Shown in pieces: positions 1,244 through 17,751 of a stretch of 26,677 nucleotides of DNA (position 1 is its first letter; every line of letters begins with the position of its first letter). The position numbers and the translations under genes are program-made. The notes below the pieces were generated by a model that made no database searches, was not told where the DNA came from, and worked only from the letters and a program-made list of their open reading frames with translations. Source of the stretch: a virus; IMG/VR virus record IMGVR_UViG_3300037502_002650, positions 1 to 26,677 of that record. The stretch is one strand, 5' to 3'.

Positions 1244-1272
1244 TTGACACGGGAGAACGTATCGGATCTTAT
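1244..1272 (+). promoter_or_regulatory. Candidate promoter of the replication operon, overlapping a TATGCGA element
   Basis: TTGACA at 1244-1249 is followed after 17 bp by TCTTAT at 1267-1272 (4 of 6 matches to TATAAT). TATGCGA lies at 1270-1276 and is followed by TTGTCAA, so the region is flanked by TTGACA and TGTCAA in inverted orientation. It lies in the 98-bp divergent gap between the helicase and the first rightward gene. The promoter is a prediction from sequence alone. Confidence 0.5.
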
Positions 1273-1329
1273 GCGAACTTGTCAACCCCGACGGGCTGGC
1301 ACGACACACGAAGCACGAAAGGACGTCTG

Positions 1330-2754: not shown

Positions 2755-4293
2755 ATGCTGACGCAGAAATTCATGGCCATCTTCGATGGCCTAGAAGAAG
2801 CCTATGGCTACTACAAAATCGAAAAACGAGAAGCCAACGGCAAGAACAAAGGCAAGGCAGGCATACTCCGCGAACCGCGGACCACGGCCCTGTGGGAAAA
2901 CCACCTGTCGGGCAAGGGCGCCTCCCTTGGCATCATCCCCATCAACGCGCAGAACATGTGCAAGTGGGGCTGCATCGACATCGACCAATATCCGCTGGAC
3001 CACGCGGCGCTGATGCAGAACATCCGGCGGCAAAAGCTGCCGCTCGTCGTCTGCCGTTCAAAGAGCGGCGGGGCGCACTGCTTCCTGTTCGCCACAGAGT
3101 GGATCGAAGCGCGAGACATGCAGAACTCCCTGCAATGCCTTGCCTCCACGCTTGGGTACAGCGACAGCGAAATCTTCCCCAAGCAGGTCAAACTCAACCT
3201 TGAGCGCGGGGACGTCGGCAACTTCCTGAACCTGCCGTACTATGACGCGGAGGACGGGCTGCGCTACGCCTTCCACGACGATGGCACTTCCGCCACGCTG
3301 GAAGAGTTCGTCGGGCTATACCAGCAGTATGTACAGACGCCGGAGCAGATCCTTCGTTTGCAGAATACCGACAGCATCAGCGACCCGATGATTGAGCACG
3401 CACCGCCGTGTTTGCAGGCGCTGATGAGGATCAAGGTCGGAGAGGGCGCGCGCAACAACGGCCTGTTCGACTTTGGAGTGTTTTTGCGCCAAGCGTACGT
3501 CGAAACGTGGGAGAGCGAGATCCTGCGTTACAACATGGAGTACATCGACCCGCCGTTGCCCTTGAATGAGGTCAACACAGTCGCCAAGCAACTGAACAAG
3601 AAAGACTACACCTACAAGTGCAGTGACGCGCCCATCAAGGCGTACTGCAACAAGGAACTCTGCCGCACGAAGAAGTTTGGCGTCAACTCTGCCGTGCAAG
3701 GGGCGACCATCGCCAACCTGAGAAAGTACAACTCGACGCCTCCGGTCTGGTTCCTCGACGTCAACGGAGAGCCGCTGGAGATCGACACGGAAGCGCTGAT
3801 GAACCAAGGGGCGTTTCAGAAGGCCTGCACCGAGCAACTCAACTTCATGCCGCGCACGGTCAACAAGTCGACGTGGGAGGGGCAGATCAGCCGCCTTCTG
3901 TCGGAGATGCGCGACAACGAAAGCGCCATCATCGAAGTGGCGCAGGATGCCAGCGTGTCCGGCCAGTTCTACGACTTCCTTGAAGAGTTCTGCCGACACC
4001 TGCAACAGGCGCAGGACAGGGAAGAAATCCTGCTTCGCCGCCCGTGGACAGACGAAGATCGCGGCCTGACCTACTTCCGACTCAAGGACTTGGAAGGCTT
4101 CCTCAAGAAGAACAAGTTCTTCGAATACAAGAGCCACAAGATTGCCCAGCGCCTGCGGGACATCAACGGCGAAAGTATCGTCCTCAAGATCAAAGGCCGC
4201 GCGGTTCGCGTCTGGCAGATTCCGGCCTTCGAAGTGGCCGACGTCGACATAGCTGCGCCCATGTTTGGAAACGGAAAGGAGATCCCGTTTTGA
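2755..4293 (+). CDS. Archaeo-eukaryotic-type (AEP) DNA primase, TOTE-primase-like
   Basis: A 512-residue protein from ATG 2755 (GAGGA upstream). The N-terminal half carries the primase catalytic signature: metal-binding CIDID (D75, D77), then SKSGGAHCFLF (residues 102-112, with His108), then EIFPKQ (139-144) followed by NFLNLPYY. This order matches the primase domain known from TOTE conflict systems and plasmid or phage AEPs. Cysteines at about 219, 289, 298 and 303 (C-x8-C-x4-C for the last three) suggest a metal or Fe-S-binding linker. The C-terminal about 170 residues are of unknown fold. The protein ends GNGKEIPF, an IPF tip shared with the SSB-like protein. It should synthesise primers for the phage family A polymerase. 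Confidence 0.85.
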   Translation: MLTQKFMAIFDGLEEAYGYYKIEKREANGKNKGKAGILREPRTTALWENHLSGKGASLGIIPINAQNMCKWGCIDIDQYPLDHAALMQNIRRQKLPLVVCRSKSGGAHCFLFATEWIEARDMQNSLQCLASTLGYSDSEIFPKQVKLNLERGDVGNFLNLPYYDAEDGLRYAFHDDGTSATLEEFVGLYQQYVQTPEQILRLQNTDSISDPMIEHAPPCLQALMRIKVGEGARNNGLFDFGVFLRQAYVETWESEILRYNMEYIDPPLPLNEVNTVAKQLNKKDYTYKCSDAPIKAYCNKELCRTKKFGVNSAVQGATIANLRKYNSTPPVWFLDVNGEPLEIDTEALMNQGAFQKACTEQLNFMPRTVNKSTWEGQISRLLSEMRDNESAIIEVAQDASVSGQFYDFLEEFCRHLQQAQDREEILLRRPWTDEDRGLTYFRLKDLEGFLKKNKFFEYKSHKIAQRLRDINGESIVLKIKGRAVRVWQIPAFEVADVDIAAPMFGNGKEIPF

Positions 4294-4769
4294 CGACAAT
4301 CCCGACTGAAATACCCGGCGTGAACCTCCGTTTCTTCGACTTCAGCGAGGAAACGCGGGACCGCATTTGGGAGATCTACCGCAGGAGGAAGGTCGACAAG
4401 ATGACGCTTCGTGCTATGGCCCCAATCTACGGAGTGAGCAAGGAGCGCATTCGGCAGCTTGTTGCCAAGGCGCACAGGGCCGAGACCAAGCGCAAGCAGT
4501 TGAAGCGGCGGATGGAGCGAGGGGACGTTCCTCTGAGGATGGAAAACATGCCCCTGTCCGCAACCTGCTACTACGCCTTGAAACGTCTGGAAGCCCTGCG
4601 AATGACGCCAGAGGAGTTCGTGACGACCTTCACCATCCTAGACGTCATCAAGGTCAAGGGCATGGGCAGGACACACTTTATGACGCTTTTCAAGGCGTTG
4701 GAGGAAATAGCCCCAGATGCTGCGAATCTTTGGACCGCCCGGGACAGGGAAAACAACAACGCTGCTTAA
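4290..4769 (+). CDS. Sigma region-4-like HTH joined to an RNAP alpha-CTD-like HhH domain
   Basis: 159 residues if started at TTG 4290, which overlaps the primase stop by four bases and has AAAGGAG nine bases upstream; GTG at 4320 is an alternative start. Residues 38-61 (MTLRAMAPIYGVSKERIRQL and the next few) match the helix-turn-helix of sigma-70 region 4, where the usual form is GVSRERVRQIE. Residues 88-138 (LSATCYYALKRLEAL, then KVKGMGRTHF) resemble the helix-hairpin-helix of the RNA polymerase alpha C-terminal domain. Both parts bind DNA or RNA polymerase in their parent proteins, so a phage transcription regulator is likely. The last 53 bases overlap the UvrD-like gene. Confidence 0.75.
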   Translation: MTTIPTEIPGVNLRFFDFSEETRDRIWEIYRRRKVDKMTLRAMAPIYGVSKERIRQLVAKAHRAETKRKQLKRRMERGDVPLRMENMPLSATCYYALKRLEALRMTPEEFVTTFTILDVIKVKGMGRTHFMTLFKALEEIAPDAANLWTARDRENNNAA

Positions 4770-9122: not shown

Positions 9123-9151
9123 TCGCATACTTGGACCAGTCTGTTCGCATA
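9123..9151 (-). promoter_or_regulatory. Tandem pair of TATGCGA elements
   Basis: On the minus strand TATGCGA occurs at 9151-9145 and 9129-9123, 22 bp apart (about two helical turns), upstream of the minus gene starting at 9104 and opposite the plus gene at 9173. On the plus strand TTGACA at 9114-9119 abuts the pair. The element recurs in other intergenic regions of the window. Confidence 0.5.
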
Positions 9152-12126: not shown

Positions 12127-12500
12127 AAGGGGGGTGGGACGCGGTTCGCGGATCACGGCCTTGTATATATATGGAGCCAAACTCTAACGAGGTGAATGAA
12201 ATGAAAATGACCGTAACCGATGTTTTTCCGTTAACCACCCCTGTTTTTCCCTTTATATATATGGGGTTAGTAGTTTCACTAAGTAGCTAAGTGATGTTTT
12301 TGAAATATGTAACCGATGTATCCCCTCCCGAAGGGGGCCGGGAAGGCCGGGGAAGGCCGTCCAAGGGGGCCGCGGGGCAAAAATCGAAAAGTGCCTTAAG
12401 GGGGTTCAAAAAAATTTTCGAGCCTCTCGGATTTTCCAGCCATATATACATAGAGCCTTTTGGAACCTTCCAGCCGTATGCGATAAGCGGGGACAAGACC
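12127..12500. promoter_or_regulatory. AT-rich leader with repeats before the small terminase gene
   Basis: This 374-base gap holds direct repeats: TATATATATGG at 12164-12174 and 12254-12264, an inverted TATATATGG near 12440-12448, GTAACCGATGT at 12213-12223 and 12309-12319, TTCCAGCC twice (about 12434 and 12468), and TATGCGA at 12477-12483, 18 bases before the terS start. Its GC content swings from G-rich (12323-12380) to A/T-rich. It may be a control region or an origin of replication; neither is proven. It also holds one tiny frame at 12171-12290. Confidence 0.45.
12171..12290 (+). CDS. Possible 39-residue mini-protein (doubtful)
   Basis: A frame from ATG 12171, with a second start at ATG 12201 preceded by GAGGTG. 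It would encode EPNSNEVNEMKMTVTDVFPL and a hydrophobic tail ending YMGLVVSLSS, which could insert in the membrane. The tail is encoded by the repeated TATATATATGG element, so the frame may be accidental. Translation would have to be shown directly. Confidence 0.25.
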   Translation: MEPNSNEVNEMKMTVTDVFPLTTPVFPFIYMGLVVSLSS

Positions 12501-13461: not shown

Positions 13462-13514
13462 TCGCATACCTTCTGAGGGCCGCGATGGTGCGGTTGTGCT
13501 TTGGAGGACCTACC

Positions 13515-13709
13515 ATGAAATACTTTGTCACTTGGCAGTGTGACGACTGCGACACCGGGATGGCCTTTCTGACTGTCATCCCGTCCGATGACGAGCTGCC
13601 TTTAGATGCGATCATGCGCGAGGCGTTTAACGCCGAGGACGTCGCGCCGGGCACTTCCTTCACCGTGTTCAGCATCCTGCGCGCCGAAGCCGCGCAGGTG
13701 ATCGTTTGA
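13515..13709 (+). CDS. 64-residue hypothetical protein
   Basis: ATG 13515 is preceded by GGAGGACCTACC, a translation start also found before 16663 and 16899 in near-identical form. The product (MKYFVTWQCDDCDTGMAFLT onward) has a CDDC pair and alternating hydrophobic residues suggesting a small alpha/beta fold. A reversed TATGCGA lies at 13462-13468 upstream. Function unknown. Confidence 0.65.
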   Translation: MKYFVTWQCDDCDTGMAFLTVIPSDDELPLDAIMREAFNAEDVAPGTSFTVFSILRAEAAQVIV

Positions 13710-14369: not shown

Positions 14370-14384
14370 TTTCCGAAAAAACCG

Positions 14385-14457
14385 CTTGCACACTGTGCGA
14401 GGTTATGCGACAGAGGGGGCGGGGCAATCCCGCCCCTTCACTTTTGGAGCAAGTGAC
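14385..14457 (+). promoter_or_regulatory. Conserved leader 1: CTTGC, TATGCGA and GC hairpin before the DUF932-like gene
   Basis: CTTGCA at 14385-14390, TATGCGA at 14404-14410, and a perfect hairpin with arms GGGGCGGG (14416-14423) and CCCGCCCC (14429-14436) and loop GCAAT, then TTTTGGAG as ribosome binding site. The order, spacing and hairpin recur in leaders 2 and 3. It reads as a promoter or operator followed by an RNA stem that could affect translation. Confidence 0.6.
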
Positions 14458-15651
14458 ATGACCTACCAGACCAACGCTTTCGCTCACGGGATCGGCAACG
14501 GCGCGGTTTCCGCGCAATGGTGGAGCCGCCCGGCCGACGAAAAATTCCTGTCGCTGGATGCGATGCTGACGCACAAGAAAGCCGACGCGCGCCGGTTGGA
14601 CAGCCGCATCGTTAACACGCACAAGATTAAGGTCGTCGGCGAAATCGACGAGGCCAATCCCACGACCGGCTCCGTCCTGATCGAATACACCGACGAGAAC
14701 CGCAGCGAGAACCTGACGGCCCCGACGCACTGGTCCTTTTCGCAGGTCGCGACGCTGGCCGGTGCTCCGGCGGGCTACCTGCGCGACCTTCCGGCCCCTC
14801 TGGCCGCCGACTGTCTGCAATGGGGCCTGCGCTATAACCGGGGCAAAGAACTGGTGAAACTGTATGACAGCGAGGCGGGGGCCGTGCCGGGTGAACTGCG
14901 CGCCGCTACCGGCCCCGATTATGGCCGCATTCACGACTGGGAAATAATCGAGCCGATCAAGCGGCTTGTCGATGCCAGCGAAGGCCGCTGGAAAGTCCCG
15001 GGGATGATGGTCGGCAGCCGCAACGGCTTGGCCGTGTATGATCCGGAAATCCCGGTGAGCATGGAAACGACAACGCTTTTTGCGAGCGACCGCGACGTCT
15101 TTGTCTTTCTGGTTGACGACCGCAACCCCATCGAGATCGGTAAACTTGCCAACGGCGAGCCGGACCTTGTTTTCCGGGGCTTCTACGCTTGGAACAGCGA
15201 AACGGGCAGCAAGACGGCCGGGATCGCGGCAATGTATCTGCGCGGGGTCTGCATGAACCGCAATTTGTGGGGCGTCGAAAATTTCCAAGAAATCAAAATC
15301 CGCCACACAAAATTTGCGCCGGACCGCTTCGCGGCGGAAGCGCGCCCGGCCCTGCAATCCTTCGCGCAGGGTGCGACCGCTAAATTCTTGGACGGGGTGC
15401 AGGCGGCGCGGGAGGCGATCATCGCCCGCGATGATGACGACCGGCTGGACTTTTTGACAAAGCGCGCCGGGCTTTCGCAGCGGATGGCGAAGGCCGCCGC
15501 CGCCCGGCACCTTGAAGAGGAAGGCCGCCCGGTCGAAAGCGTCTGGGACGTCGCGCAGGCGATTACCGCCGTTGCGCGGGACGTCCCGCATCAGGACGAC
15601 CGGGTGGAGCTGGAAAAGCGCGCCGGGGCGATGCTGGATAAGGTCGCATAA
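14458..15651 (+). CDS. DUF932-like phage/plasmid protein
   Basis: A 397-residue protein starting MTYQTNAFAHGIGNG, with TTTTGGAG upstream. The middle part (GFYAWNSETGSKTAGIAAMY, then RGVCMNRNLWG and IKIRHTKF) matches the conserved core of DUF932, a family common on plasmids and phages whose function is unknown; associations with DNA metabolism have been proposed. Earlier conserved turns (HWSFSQVATLAG, PAPLAADCLQWGLRYN) also fit. It begins a unit with conserved leader 1 and is followed by leader 2 and the clamp-like gene. A DNA-metabolism role here is inference. Confidence 0.7.
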   Translation: MTYQTNAFAHGIGNGAVSAQWWSRPADEKFLSLDAMLTHKKADARRLDSRIVNTHKIKVVGEIDEANPTTGSVLIEYTDENRSENLTAPTHWSFSQVATLAGAPAGYLRDLPAPLAADCLQWGLRYNRGKELVKLYDSEAGAVPGELRAATGPDYGRIHDWEIIEPIKRLVDASEGRWKVPGMMVGSRNGLAVYDPEIPVSMETTTLFASDRDVFVFLVDDRNPIEIGKLANGEPDLVFRGFYAWNSETGSKTAGIAAMYLRGVCMNRNLWGVENFQEIKIRHTKFAPDRFAAEARPALQSFAQGATAKFLDGVQAAREAIIARDDDDRLDFLTKRAGLSQRMAKAAAARHLEEEGRPVESVWDVAQAITAVARDVPHQDDRVELEKRAGAMLDKVA

Positions 15652-15660
15652 AATTACCGC

Positions 15661-15734
15661 TTGCCTTCGCGGCCGAGCGTATGCGATACACGGGGCGGGG
15701 CAATCCCGCCCCGCTTGCTTTAGGAGCCCTGCCA
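15661..15734 (+). promoter_or_regulatory. Conserved leader 2 before the clamp-like gene
   Basis: TTGCC at 15661 (preceded by CGC), TATGCGA at 15680-15686, and the same hairpin arms GGGGCGGG (15692-15699) and CCCGCCCC (15705-15712) with loop GCAAT as leader 1. A TTTAGGAG ribosome binding site follows. Identity of the hairpin between two leaders of different genes argues for function. Confidence 0.6.
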
Positions 15735-16355
15735 ATGTCCGACTTCGACGTTACTCTGCCCTGCGATATCCTGCGCGCCGTCGCGCTTGCCGTATCGACC
15801 GAAGAGACGCGCTACTACCTGCAAGGTGTTTCGGTCGAGCCTGACGGCGCGACCCTTCACCTTGTCGCAACTGACGGGCACCGCCTGATGGTCGCGCGCG
15901 TTCCCGAGATCGTCCCGGGCGAGAAATTTATCATCCCGGCCGAGATCATCGCCCGGGCTTTGAAGGGGCACAAGGCCCCCGGTATCGGTCTCGCCCGGCG
16001 CGGCGGTGCTTACACTCTTGGGGATATCCTCTTCCGCCCCGTCGATGGCAGCTTCCCCGACTGGTCCCGCGTCATGCCGGACATGGCCGAGCTTGGCACG
16101 CTGGCGCAATACGACCCCGCCTATCTTGAAGGCTTCCGCAAGGCGGCTGTCATGCTCGGCGATAAGCTCAGCAAGCCGCAGGTTCACCATTGCGGACACT
16201 CGCCCGCTCTCGTGACGTTTTACGGCCGGTCCGATGTTTTCGGGCTCTGTATGCCATACCGAAACGCGGACAAGCGCGACCCGGCCGAGCTTAAATCGAT
16301 GGTCGCGGATATGACGCGCAAGGCCCGCGCCGCCGCCCCAATGGCTGCCGAGTAG
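15735..16355 (+). CDS. Short DNA polymerase sliding-clamp-like protein (DnaN family)
   Basis: A 206-residue protein. Residues 24-55 (ETRYYLQGVSVE, then HLVATDGHRLMVAR) and 105-115 (GSFPDWSRVMP) match the second domain of the bacterial beta clamp; the rest ends VFGLCMPYR, similar to the clamp's last strand. The usual DnaN has about 370 residues in three domains; here only domains 2 and 3 seem present. A clamp of two-domain subunits could form a six-domain ring as a trimer, as PCNA or T4 gp45 do. It may tether the phage polymerase, or interfere with the host clamp. The ring form is inference. Confidence 0.7.
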   Translation: MSDFDVTLPCDILRAVALAVSTEETRYYLQGVSVEPDGATLHLVATDGHRLMVARVPEIVPGEKFIIPAEIIARALKGHKAPGIGLARRGGAYTLGDILFRPVDGSFPDWSRVMPDMAELGTLAQYDPAYLEGFRKAAVMLGDKLSKPQVHHCGHSPALVTFYGRSDVFGLCMPYRNADKRDPAELKSMVADMTRKARAAAPMAAE

Positions 16356-16386
16356 CGCGCCGAGCTCGAGCTTGCCGAGCGCCGCG

Positions 16387-16420
16387 CCCCGTCCGGTTCA
16401 TCCGGGCGGGGTTTTTCTTT
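16387..16420 (+). terminator. Rho-independent terminator after the clamp-like gene
   Basis: Stem CCCCGTCCGG (16387-16396) pairs with CCGGGCGGGG (16402-16411), including one U-G pair, with loop TTCAT, followed by TTTTTCTTT. It should end the DUF932-clamp transcripts. A very similar stem occurs at 17390 with a weaker tail. Confidence 0.85.
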
Positions 16421-16426
16421 GCCGCG

Positions 16427-16481
16427 CTCTTATTTATCGAGTGATAAACAACCTCCTCTTATTTATCGAGTGATAAACAAC
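16427..16481. repeat. Two 26-bp direct repeats, each an imperfect palindrome
   Basis: Units at 16427-16452 and 16456-16481 are identical and 29 bp apart. Each contains TTTATCGAGTGATAAA, a perfect inverted repeat with 6-bp arms around GAGT, extended to 9 bp with one mismatch. The spacing of nearly three helical turns fits two bound dimers of a repressor or replication protein. It lies just after a terminator and about 180 bp before the next gene. Confidence 0.75.
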
Positions 16482-16594
16482 GGCAACCTCCGCCTCTGCT
16501 TTGCTGAAACCGGCACCCGCGATCCGCGCCCCGAGGGCAGCGATCCGTGCCCCGTGAAACCCGCGCCCCGCGCCCCTTATTTTGCTGGAAATAT

Positions 16595-16662
16595 CGCTTG
16601 CCCTGCGCTGCGAAGATATGCGAGGGTGGGGGTGGGCAATCACGCCCTTTGGAGACCTACCA
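16595..16662 (+). promoter_or_regulatory. Conserved leader 3 before the 16663 gene
   Basis: CGCTTGCC at 16595-16602, TATGCGA at 16617-16623, and a related hairpin with arms GGGGGTG (16628-16634) and CACGCCC (16641-16647), loop GGCAAT, one mismatch. Then CTTTGGAGACCTACCA precedes the ATG. The stem sequence differs from leaders 1 and 2 but the loop and pairing are kept, as expected if the fold matters. Confidence 0.55.
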
Positions 16663-16875
16663 ATGACCGACCTTATCGCCGCCGTCCGTTCCCACGCCGA
16701 GGCCAACTGGGGCAAAGAGGGCTGGGATTTCCTCGTCGAGTGCTGGGATGATCAAGACATCGCCGAGGCCATCGGCGGTGCCAAGACGCCCCGCGCTGCC
16801 ATCGCCGCCTGCAAGCGGCAGGTCCGGATACTCCACGACCACCGCAGCGAAATGTGGGCGATGGCTAACTGGTAA
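16663..16875 (+). CDS. 70-residue hypothetical protein
   Basis: ATG 16663 with GGAGACCTACCA upstream. The sequence (MTDLIAAVRSHAEANWGKEG, then FLVECWDDQDIAEAIGG) is helical and rich in Trp and acidic residues. AIGGAKTPRAAIAACKRQVR in its second half resembles a short helix-turn-helix but is not diagnostic. It is the first gene of a three-gene unit. Function unknown. Confidence 0.65.
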   Translation: MTDLIAAVRSHAEANWGKEGWDFLVECWDDQDIAEAIGGAKTPRAAIAACKRQVRILHDHRSEMWAMANW

Positions 16876-17420: not shown

Positions 17421-17735
17421 CTTGCCCGGCCGGTGCCGAGATCGAGCGCGCCGCGCCCAACCGGCAGTTGTGCCAGGATCTCGACCTGGCGCAACCGGCA
17501 CGCGATCCGCGAGCCGCGATCCGCGCATCCCGGCACGCGCCCCGCCCCGCCCGGTGCACGGGGCCCCGGCCGCAATAGAGGCTACCGGCGCGCAGCCGGT
17601 GACGGCGCGATGCGAGCCGCGCAGCGCGGCCGGGCGGTCTGGCGATCGGGCGCTTGGGCCATGTTCGTTACAAACAATCACGTTCCAAAATAAAAATGGT
17701 ACCTAAATTCTACCAACGGTATGCGATCCGTCGTA

Positions 17736-17751
17736 TGTTTCACGTGAAACG
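17736..17751. other. parS-like ParB-binding site
   Basis: TGTTTCACGTGAAACG differs from the chromosomal parS form TGTTTCACGTGAAACA only at the last base and contains the complete 14-bp palindrome GTTTCACGTGAAAC. ParB proteins of alphaproteobacteria bind this sequence in origin segregation. It lies ten bases after a TATGCGA element and about 95 bases before the large terminase gene. Binding is inferred from sequence identity. Confidence 0.75.

Follow-up and report, generated by a model that had tools for sequence, protein, structure and literature searches.

Cluster K mycobacteriophages carry extended start-associated sequences (ESAS), SigA-like promoters with an inverted repeat that have been proposed to be repressed by a regulator (PMC3203893, PMC11373665). 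Together with the start-associated sequences (SAS) of the same phages, they are the closest known system to the repeated gene leaders that we describe here from IMG/VR record IMGVR_UViG_3300037502_002650, which was analysed over its whole length of 26,677 nucleotides (the window). Three genes of this record, encoding a DUF932 protein, a sliding-clamp-like protein and a 70-residue protein, each follow a leader in which CGCTTGC, TATGCGA, a GC hairpin and a ribosome site succeed one another. Comparison with relatives indicates that these leaders belong to a phage-wide regulon with phased, putative operators and a selected RNA hairpin, which is more than a preliminary description of the locus had claimed, and in which the mechanism of each part is read from sequence.

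The combination CGCTTGC-N{12,24}-TATGCGA is present at exactly three places of the window, always on the plus strand (14383-14410, 15658-15686 and 16595-16623) and with a gap of 14-15 nt, against a mean of 0.01 in dinucleotide shuffles of the window, confirming the shared order that had been reported before the genes starting at 14458, 15735 and 16663; the ribosome sites are likewise as first described. TATGCGA alone is 5-fold over chance in the window (11 copies, 2.2 expected), and CGCTTGC alone is not enriched there (10 copies, 7.6 expected). The parts of the three leaders and their genes are as follows.

14383-14389, plus strand: CGCTTGC of leader 1, read as a putative sigma70-type -35 region (TTGCAC), with the same spacing in relatives
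14394-14410, plus strand: putative operator of leader 1, TGTGCGA (14394-14400) and TATGCGA (14404-14410), 10 bp apart
14413-14439, plus strand: hairpin of leader 1, GAGGGGGCGGG-GCAAT-CCCGCCCCTTC, folding z -3.9, with compensatory changes in relatives
14444-14449, plus strand: ribosome site TTGGAG of the DUF932 gene
14458-15651, plus strand: gene 1, DUF932 protein of 397 amino acids (aa) (Pfam E 6e-6; phrog_1362 E 2e-49)
15658-15664, plus strand: CGCTTGC of leader 2, putative -35 region
15680-15686, plus strand: putative operator half-site TATGCGA of leader 2
15691-15713, plus strand: hairpin of leader 2, CGGGGCGGG-GCAAT-CCCGCCCCG, folding z -1.8
15722-15726, plus strand: ribosome site AGGAG of gene 2
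15735-16355, plus strand: gene 2, sliding-clamp-like protein of 206 aa (DNA_pol3_beta_2 E 3e-11; phrog_947 processivity factor E 3e-19; phrog_3007 E 4e-28)
16595-16601, plus strand: CGCTTGC of leader 3, putative -35 region
16607-16623, plus strand: putative operator of leader 3, GCTGCGA (16607-16613) and TATGCGA (16617-16623), 10 bp apart
16628-16647, plus strand: imperfect hairpin of leader 3, GGGGGTGG-GCAA-TCACGCCC, with one G-G mismatch
16663-16875, plus strand: gene 3, protein of 70 aa, matching no family and of unknown function

Leaders 1 and 2 do share an identical hairpin core, GGGGCGGG-GCAAT-CCCGCCCC, as had been noticed, and the folding z of leader 2 is modest because the surrounding region is GC-rich. 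For leader 3, the preliminary description held that the arms differ and the pairing is kept; the arms differ, but the pairing is kept only in part in the window, because of the G-G mismatch and because the stretch folded alone adopts another minimum-energy structure (z -0.9). Its counterpart in the relative L004, which is 98% identical in DUF932, pairs perfectly (GGGCGGG-CAAT-CCCGCCC). The half-sites 10 bp upstream in leaders 1 (14394) and 3 (16607) had gone unmentioned, and the operator of leader 1 overlaps the predicted extended -10 (TGC-GACAGA). Genes 1-3 are not one transcription unit, since each has its own promoter and is part of a larger, phage-wide set.

The extent of this set emerges from the relatives. 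Viral contigs hold 265 relatives of the window DUF932 protein, of which 80 were fetched for comparison of their leaders; the same leader precedes DUF932 in nearly all 80, with a divergent form in one lineage (L072/L074/L078), and variants of it precede many other genes. In the relatives, the DUF932 leader consists of an AT-rich upstream element, (G)CTTGCA, 14-15 nt that often include a second half-site, TATGCGA, a further ~6 nt, the GC hairpin, a T-rich stretch, ACGGAG and the start codon, with near-invariant columns at TTGC, TGCGA and GGAG and variable hairpin arms. When starts were scanned for a ribosome site plus an operator, 283 distinct leaders were returned, some of them by chance. Many genes located between the replication genes and the terminase have TATGCGA or its complement at their promoters, and 47 of 86 TATGCGA sites in seven contigs lie between predicted genes although the non-coding share is only 5-11%, while scrambled 7-mers in the same contigs were each intergenic only 0-2 times per contig.

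Same-strand pairs of TATG(C/G)GA within 45 bp are strongly phased: 68 of 73 distinct cases are spaced by 10 bp, four by 20 bp and one by 22 bp, whereas four scrambled control words gave one pair in total; opposite-strand pairs of half-sites number 13 in all. The direct repeats overlap the -10 of a sigma70-like promoter, typically in the form TTTACTTTTTATAAAGTTA-TCGCATA-TAA-TCGCATA, where the -10 TATAAT sits between the repeats, and for single reverse sites the best -35/-10 pair places the -10 at operator position +5 in 75 of 136, with a spacer of 17-18 bp. Most leaders of the relatives have a sigma70-type -35/-10 pair at 16-18 bp (TTTACT/TTGAC...TATAAT). At DUF932 promoters the operator is in the opposite orientation, and TATGC combines with GATATT into an extended -10. 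Direct repeats with a 10-bp period would place proteins on the same helix face, suggesting cooperative binding that may block or recruit polymerase, and co-regulation by a DNA-binding protein is supported, with the regulator a candidate only. The earlier proposal of a unit co-regulated by one protein thus survives as regards the regulation, given an element at many promoters in 10-bp phase over the -10, and fails as regards the single unit, given the separate promoters.

Part of this evidence can be read differently, with the repeats as the site of a host regulator, or as just a strong extended -10 for the host RNA polymerase, and with no phage regulator at all. TATGC-GATATT of the DUF932 promoters does read as an extended -10 (TGn) that places the element within the core promoter, and we recognised no gene for a classical repressor in the window. 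Yet the element occurs in both orientations to the gene and as 10-bp repeats either side of a good TATAAT, which a core-promoter preference fails to explain, and it is much commoner between genes than the scrambled controls, an excess with which a host regulator would be compatible. We consider a purely host-based explanation unlikely, if worth keeping in mind.

Two types of helix-turn-helix (HTH) protein are candidates for a phage regulator. In 7 contigs, a 50-aa protein with a sigma-region-4-like HTH is encoded between primase and helicase, and the place of this ~50-aa HTH is occupied in the window by a longer protein.

4290-4769, plus strand: candidate regulator of 159 aa with a sigma-region-4-like HTH (Sigma70_r4 E 7e-5, just under the cut-off)

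Its domain is 33% identical to the 50-aa HTH of the relatives (E 3e-6 to L091 2461-2613), and a sigma-4-like HTH is present in 8 of 11 contigs. The window protein also has a second helical part of unknown identity; a likeness of this half to alpha-CTD, suspected by eye, was dropped, the structure prediction having a predicted local distance difference test score of 53 and no match in the PDB. The other candidate, an HTH_17/AlpA-like protein with a C-terminal hydrophobic segment, is found in 7 of the 11 contigs, and 8 of the 11 HTH_17-like genes listed have operator-like repeats directly upstream, as expected under autoregulation. PF00940, representing phage single-subunit RNA polymerase, was not found in the 11 contigs, though its positive control was silent too, and no such polymerase was seen by eye in the open reading frame list of the 55.8-kb contig G002.

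The preliminary description had counted a lack of conserved pairing in homologues against its reading, but there the hairpin is kept by compensatory changes. Since a MAFFT alignment put many arms in the wrong place, pairing was judged by swapping arms between leaders and by shuffling. Own arms were 97% paired and swapped arms 56% in 27 DUF932 leaders, and 90% against 51% in 38 other leaders, with a bias toward the unswapped score because arms had been picked as the best hairpin. When shuffled leaders were given the same best-hairpin choice, 33 of 38 DUF932 leaders outscored 59 or more of their 60 shuffles, as did 37 of 96 other leaders, a set that scores lower because it includes several leader types without a hairpin. 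Loops are mostly GCAA, GGCAA, GAAA or GGGCAA.

Such a conserved hairpin before a start codon might suggest a riboswitch or other metabolite-sensing RNA, and an RNA switch was the other option of the preliminary description. We rejected it for want of a conserved core and regard it as scarcely credible: the leader is short, with a single short hairpin of variable, generic stem and GNRA-like loop and with no conserved junction, the family has no common alternative fold, and Rfam covariance models matched nothing in the window and only a tRNA in the relatives. It is also rather improbable that the hairpin is an RNA signal recognised through its loop by a protein or by RNA polymerase, be it a boxB/put-like antitermination signal or a translational operator. 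The recurrence of a GGGCAA or GNRA loop before unrelated genes with different stems would fit such a signal, as would the finding that, in several relatives, the long early leader has a similar hairpin directly 5' of an rrn-like boxA (CGCTCTTTRACAATTT); but the three window leaders have no boxA, loops such as ATGT, TGT, TAT, ACCCC and AATAAA are found as well, GNRA loops are common merely through their stability, and conservation is limited to one hairpin without an Rfam match.

The same early leaders merit description in their own right. In L013 (1099), L015 (429), L028 (134), L034 (1008), L055 (199) and L075 (277), a long early leader combines an operator promoter and stem-loops with a GGGCGGGCAAGCCC-type hairpin and the rrn-like boxA. 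In the form CTCTTTRACAA, boxA was found only in the early leader of some relatives and in none of the three window leaders, and NusB/NusE-type antitermination is possible in the boxA-bearing early leaders.

The divergence of the stems bears on whether the likeness of the leaders reflects shared regulation at all, or merely recent copying of a promoter-terminator cassette by recombination. Copying would account for the identical hairpin cores in leaders 1 and 2 of the window and for the DUF932 and clamp leaders of L059, which are near copies. In the relatives, however, stems have widely diverged while pairing, operator phase and distance persist, and selection is therefore needed; copying and shared regulation are, moreover, compatible. 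We give plain duplication little chance of being the explanation.

The position of the hairpin suggests what it may do. Where non-DUF932 leaders have a TATAAT-like -10, the stem begins 5-8 nt past it in 33 of 38 cases, which places it at the predicted 5'-terminal nucleotide of the mRNA; a strong stem in such a position is known to guard bacterial mRNA against 5'-end-dependent decay. The stem of DUF932 leaders mostly begins 4-7 nt past TATGCGA. A T-run follows the hairpin in 31 of 37 DUF932 leaders against 15 of 64 other leaders, and another terminator was found in the 170 nt upstream in none of the 37 DUF932 leaders, whereas such a terminator precedes 41 of 64 other leaders (T-run versus upstream terminator, Fisher p 1.6e-5, kinship uncorrected). 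Further, in the relatives the end of the gene before DUF932 often falls immediately at the AT-rich element. The hairpin of the DUF932 leader is thus probably also the terminator of the preceding gene, despite lying downstream of the DUF932 promoter, a reading that is less certain for the window itself because the T-runs of its leaders are weak.

On balance, we think it probable that the leaders are copies of a per-gene cassette comprising a phage-regulated promoter, a protective or terminating hairpin and a ribosome site. A phage-encoded DNA-binding protein, for which the sigma-region-4-like HTH protein of the window (4290-4769) and the HTH_17/AlpA type of most relatives are candidates, would bind the 10-bp repeats cooperatively on one helix face and set the timing of each gene, most simply by blocking RNA polymerase. 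At most genes, the hairpin at the transcript start would shield the 5' end of the mRNA; before DUF932, where it usually carries a T-run, it would double as the terminator of a preceding gene that has none of its own, insulating DUF932 from read-through. A strong ribosome site comes after the hairpin.

Several observations weigh against this cassette. The GC-rich window leaders have weak -10 sequences (GACAGA, GATACA and GAGGGT) and poor T-runs. At threshold, HTH_17 is missing from four contigs (that of the window, G005, G007 and G009), which weakens it as a universal regulator, and neither candidate HTH is present in every operator-bearing contig (G005 has none). The C/G variation of the operator tracks only weakly within genomes (p = 0.007, kinship uncorrected). 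If the assigned -10 is right, the DUF932 hairpin begins ~3-6 nt upstream of the predicted +1, and the mRNA of the gene itself would therefore carry only part of it. Start sites, termination and binding, finally, are all deduced from the nucleotide sequence.

The last arrangement of hairpin and start site allows a more specific reading, which we offer tentatively as possible but doubtful: the DUF932 leader may be a self-exempting insulator, with the same kind of hairpin serving elsewhere as a protective 5' end and with a single phage regulator acting throughout on operators of 10-bp direct repeats. Transcripts from the preceding gene would form the whole hairpin and stop, while those from the embedded promoter would lack part of the 5' arm, which begins upstream of the start, and pass; with GATATT as the -10, the folding energy predicted to remain in the gene's own RNA is about half to three quarters of the whole. 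A separate kind of overlap is seen at DUF7227-type genes (L013 3156, L017 2191, L066 2942 and others), where the promoter -35 (TTGACT/TTGACC) is contained in the loop of a hairpin resembling a terminator (GCCCGC-TTGACT-GCGGGCTTTTTT) 50-100 nt upstream of the gene, and terminator and promoter therefore share bases.

Further TATGCGA sites of the window (1270, 9123, 9145, 12477 and 13462) lie in promoter-like regions.

1270-1276, plus strand: TATGCGA in the shared spacer of two face-to-face, overlapping promoter-like sequences (TTGACA...TGTCAA, 1228-1276), which, sharing one spacer, should exclude each other
9123-9151, minus strand: pair of TATGCGA half-sites spaced by 22 bp, within a promoter-like region that separates leftward from rightward genes
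12477-12483, plus strand: TATGCGA directly upstream of the small terminase gene
13462-13468, minus strand: TATGCGA (TCGCATA on the plus strand), flanked by -35 TTGACC and -10 TACCTT belonging to the gene that starts at 13515

At 26.7 kb, the window represents a piece of a phage genome, with genes for DNA polymerase A, a UvrD helicase, a TOTE-type primase, terminase and an SU10-type portal, and its family is large and mostly environmental; a scan for tRNA and tmRNA found none. In an annotated phage collection, the nearest DUF932 proteins are 39-48% identical (Microcystis Mae-JY30, Synechococcus S-ESS1, Erythrobacter ZS04), and bacterial homologues, at 50-53% identity, are common on alphaproteobacterial plasmids and other contigs. 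The leaders inspected at homologues on bacterial plasmids and integrative and conjugative elements (ICEs) are without the TATGCGA/hairpin element. Those of the alphaproteobacterial plasmid/ICE set (L105-L161) have another conserved-looking hairpin ~100 nt upstream, of GGGTTGAGG-CTGGGAGAGAGGCTCCCGGCGCCCGTC type, with no Rfam match. L103, filed under a Rhodospirillales metagenome-assembled genome (79% identity), looks like a phage of the window's family because it has the full leader, other operator promoters and a parS-like site. Upstream of the large terminase gene, the window itself carries a near-perfect chromosomal-type site (17727-17745, TGTTTCACGTGAAACA), which we take to be parS from its consensus, with similar sites at L034 6591, L066 6788, L103 4238 and others. 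The fetched loci (604 kb) contain GTTTCACGTGAAAC 42 times and the variant GTTCCACGTGGAAC 22 times, and the parS-like 16-mer occurs in >120 viral-contig stretches in all; no ParB_N gene was found in the 11 contigs, so that these phages may recruit the host ParB.

The leaders point to a phage-wide regulatory code in a common, mostly uncultured phage family, in which single genes have operators of one common phase and structured 5' ends. This code predicts which genes are co-expressed and names candidate regulators, and it places the region around the poorly understood DUF932 gene under strong regulatory selection. Should the DUF932 leader indeed pass its own transcripts and stop read-through, it would represent a compact insulator design.

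Among described systems, T4-type phages offer a possible parallel in mobile intergenic cassettes of promoter and stem-loop that are copied between genes. Cluster A mycobacteriophages such as L5 have stoperators, 13-bp sites with a known repressor. These are, like the sites here, many, short, asymmetric, phage-wide and tied to transcription control, but are not known to be linked to a leader hairpin. Stabilising 5' hairpins of the ompA type lie at or near the first transcript nucleotide, upstream of the ribosome site, as is predicted for the non-DUF932 hairpins here; in contrast, the hairpin here is coupled to a putative phage operator and, before DUF932, usually has a terminator-like T-run. 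A small HTH_17/AlpA protein regulates a phage-related element in the PICMI satellite, where AlpA drives excision and left satellite gene expression unaltered (PMC10803314), while the candidate HTH_17 here would act on promoters. The SAS and ESAS of cluster K resemble our leaders most, being short repeated leaders that precede some of the non-structural genes at dispersed genome positions (PMC3203893, PMC11373665), with a sigma70-like promoter whose -35 and -10 are spaced 17-18 bp, an overlapping repeated site and a conserved ribosome-site region, their function being predicted in ESAS too. The 13-bp SAS GGGATAGGAGCCC is absent at the start codons here, where the three leaders read TTTTGGAGCAAGTGAC, TTTAGGAGCCCTGCC and TTTGGAGACCTACC and the relatives ACTACGGAG. 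Nor do we find a 17-bp inverted repeat over a SigA-like promoter: the ESAS repeat is imperfect, inverted and 15-17 bp long, whereas the 7-bp half-sites here form direct repeats, 68 of 73 at 10 bp. The sequences differ from ESAS, relatives of the window phage point to Gram-negative hosts, and promoter and ribosome site are separated here by an RNA hairpin that shows compensatory changes. Given these differences in sequence, repeat type and RNA hairpin, the system described here appears to work like ESAS but is not ESAS.

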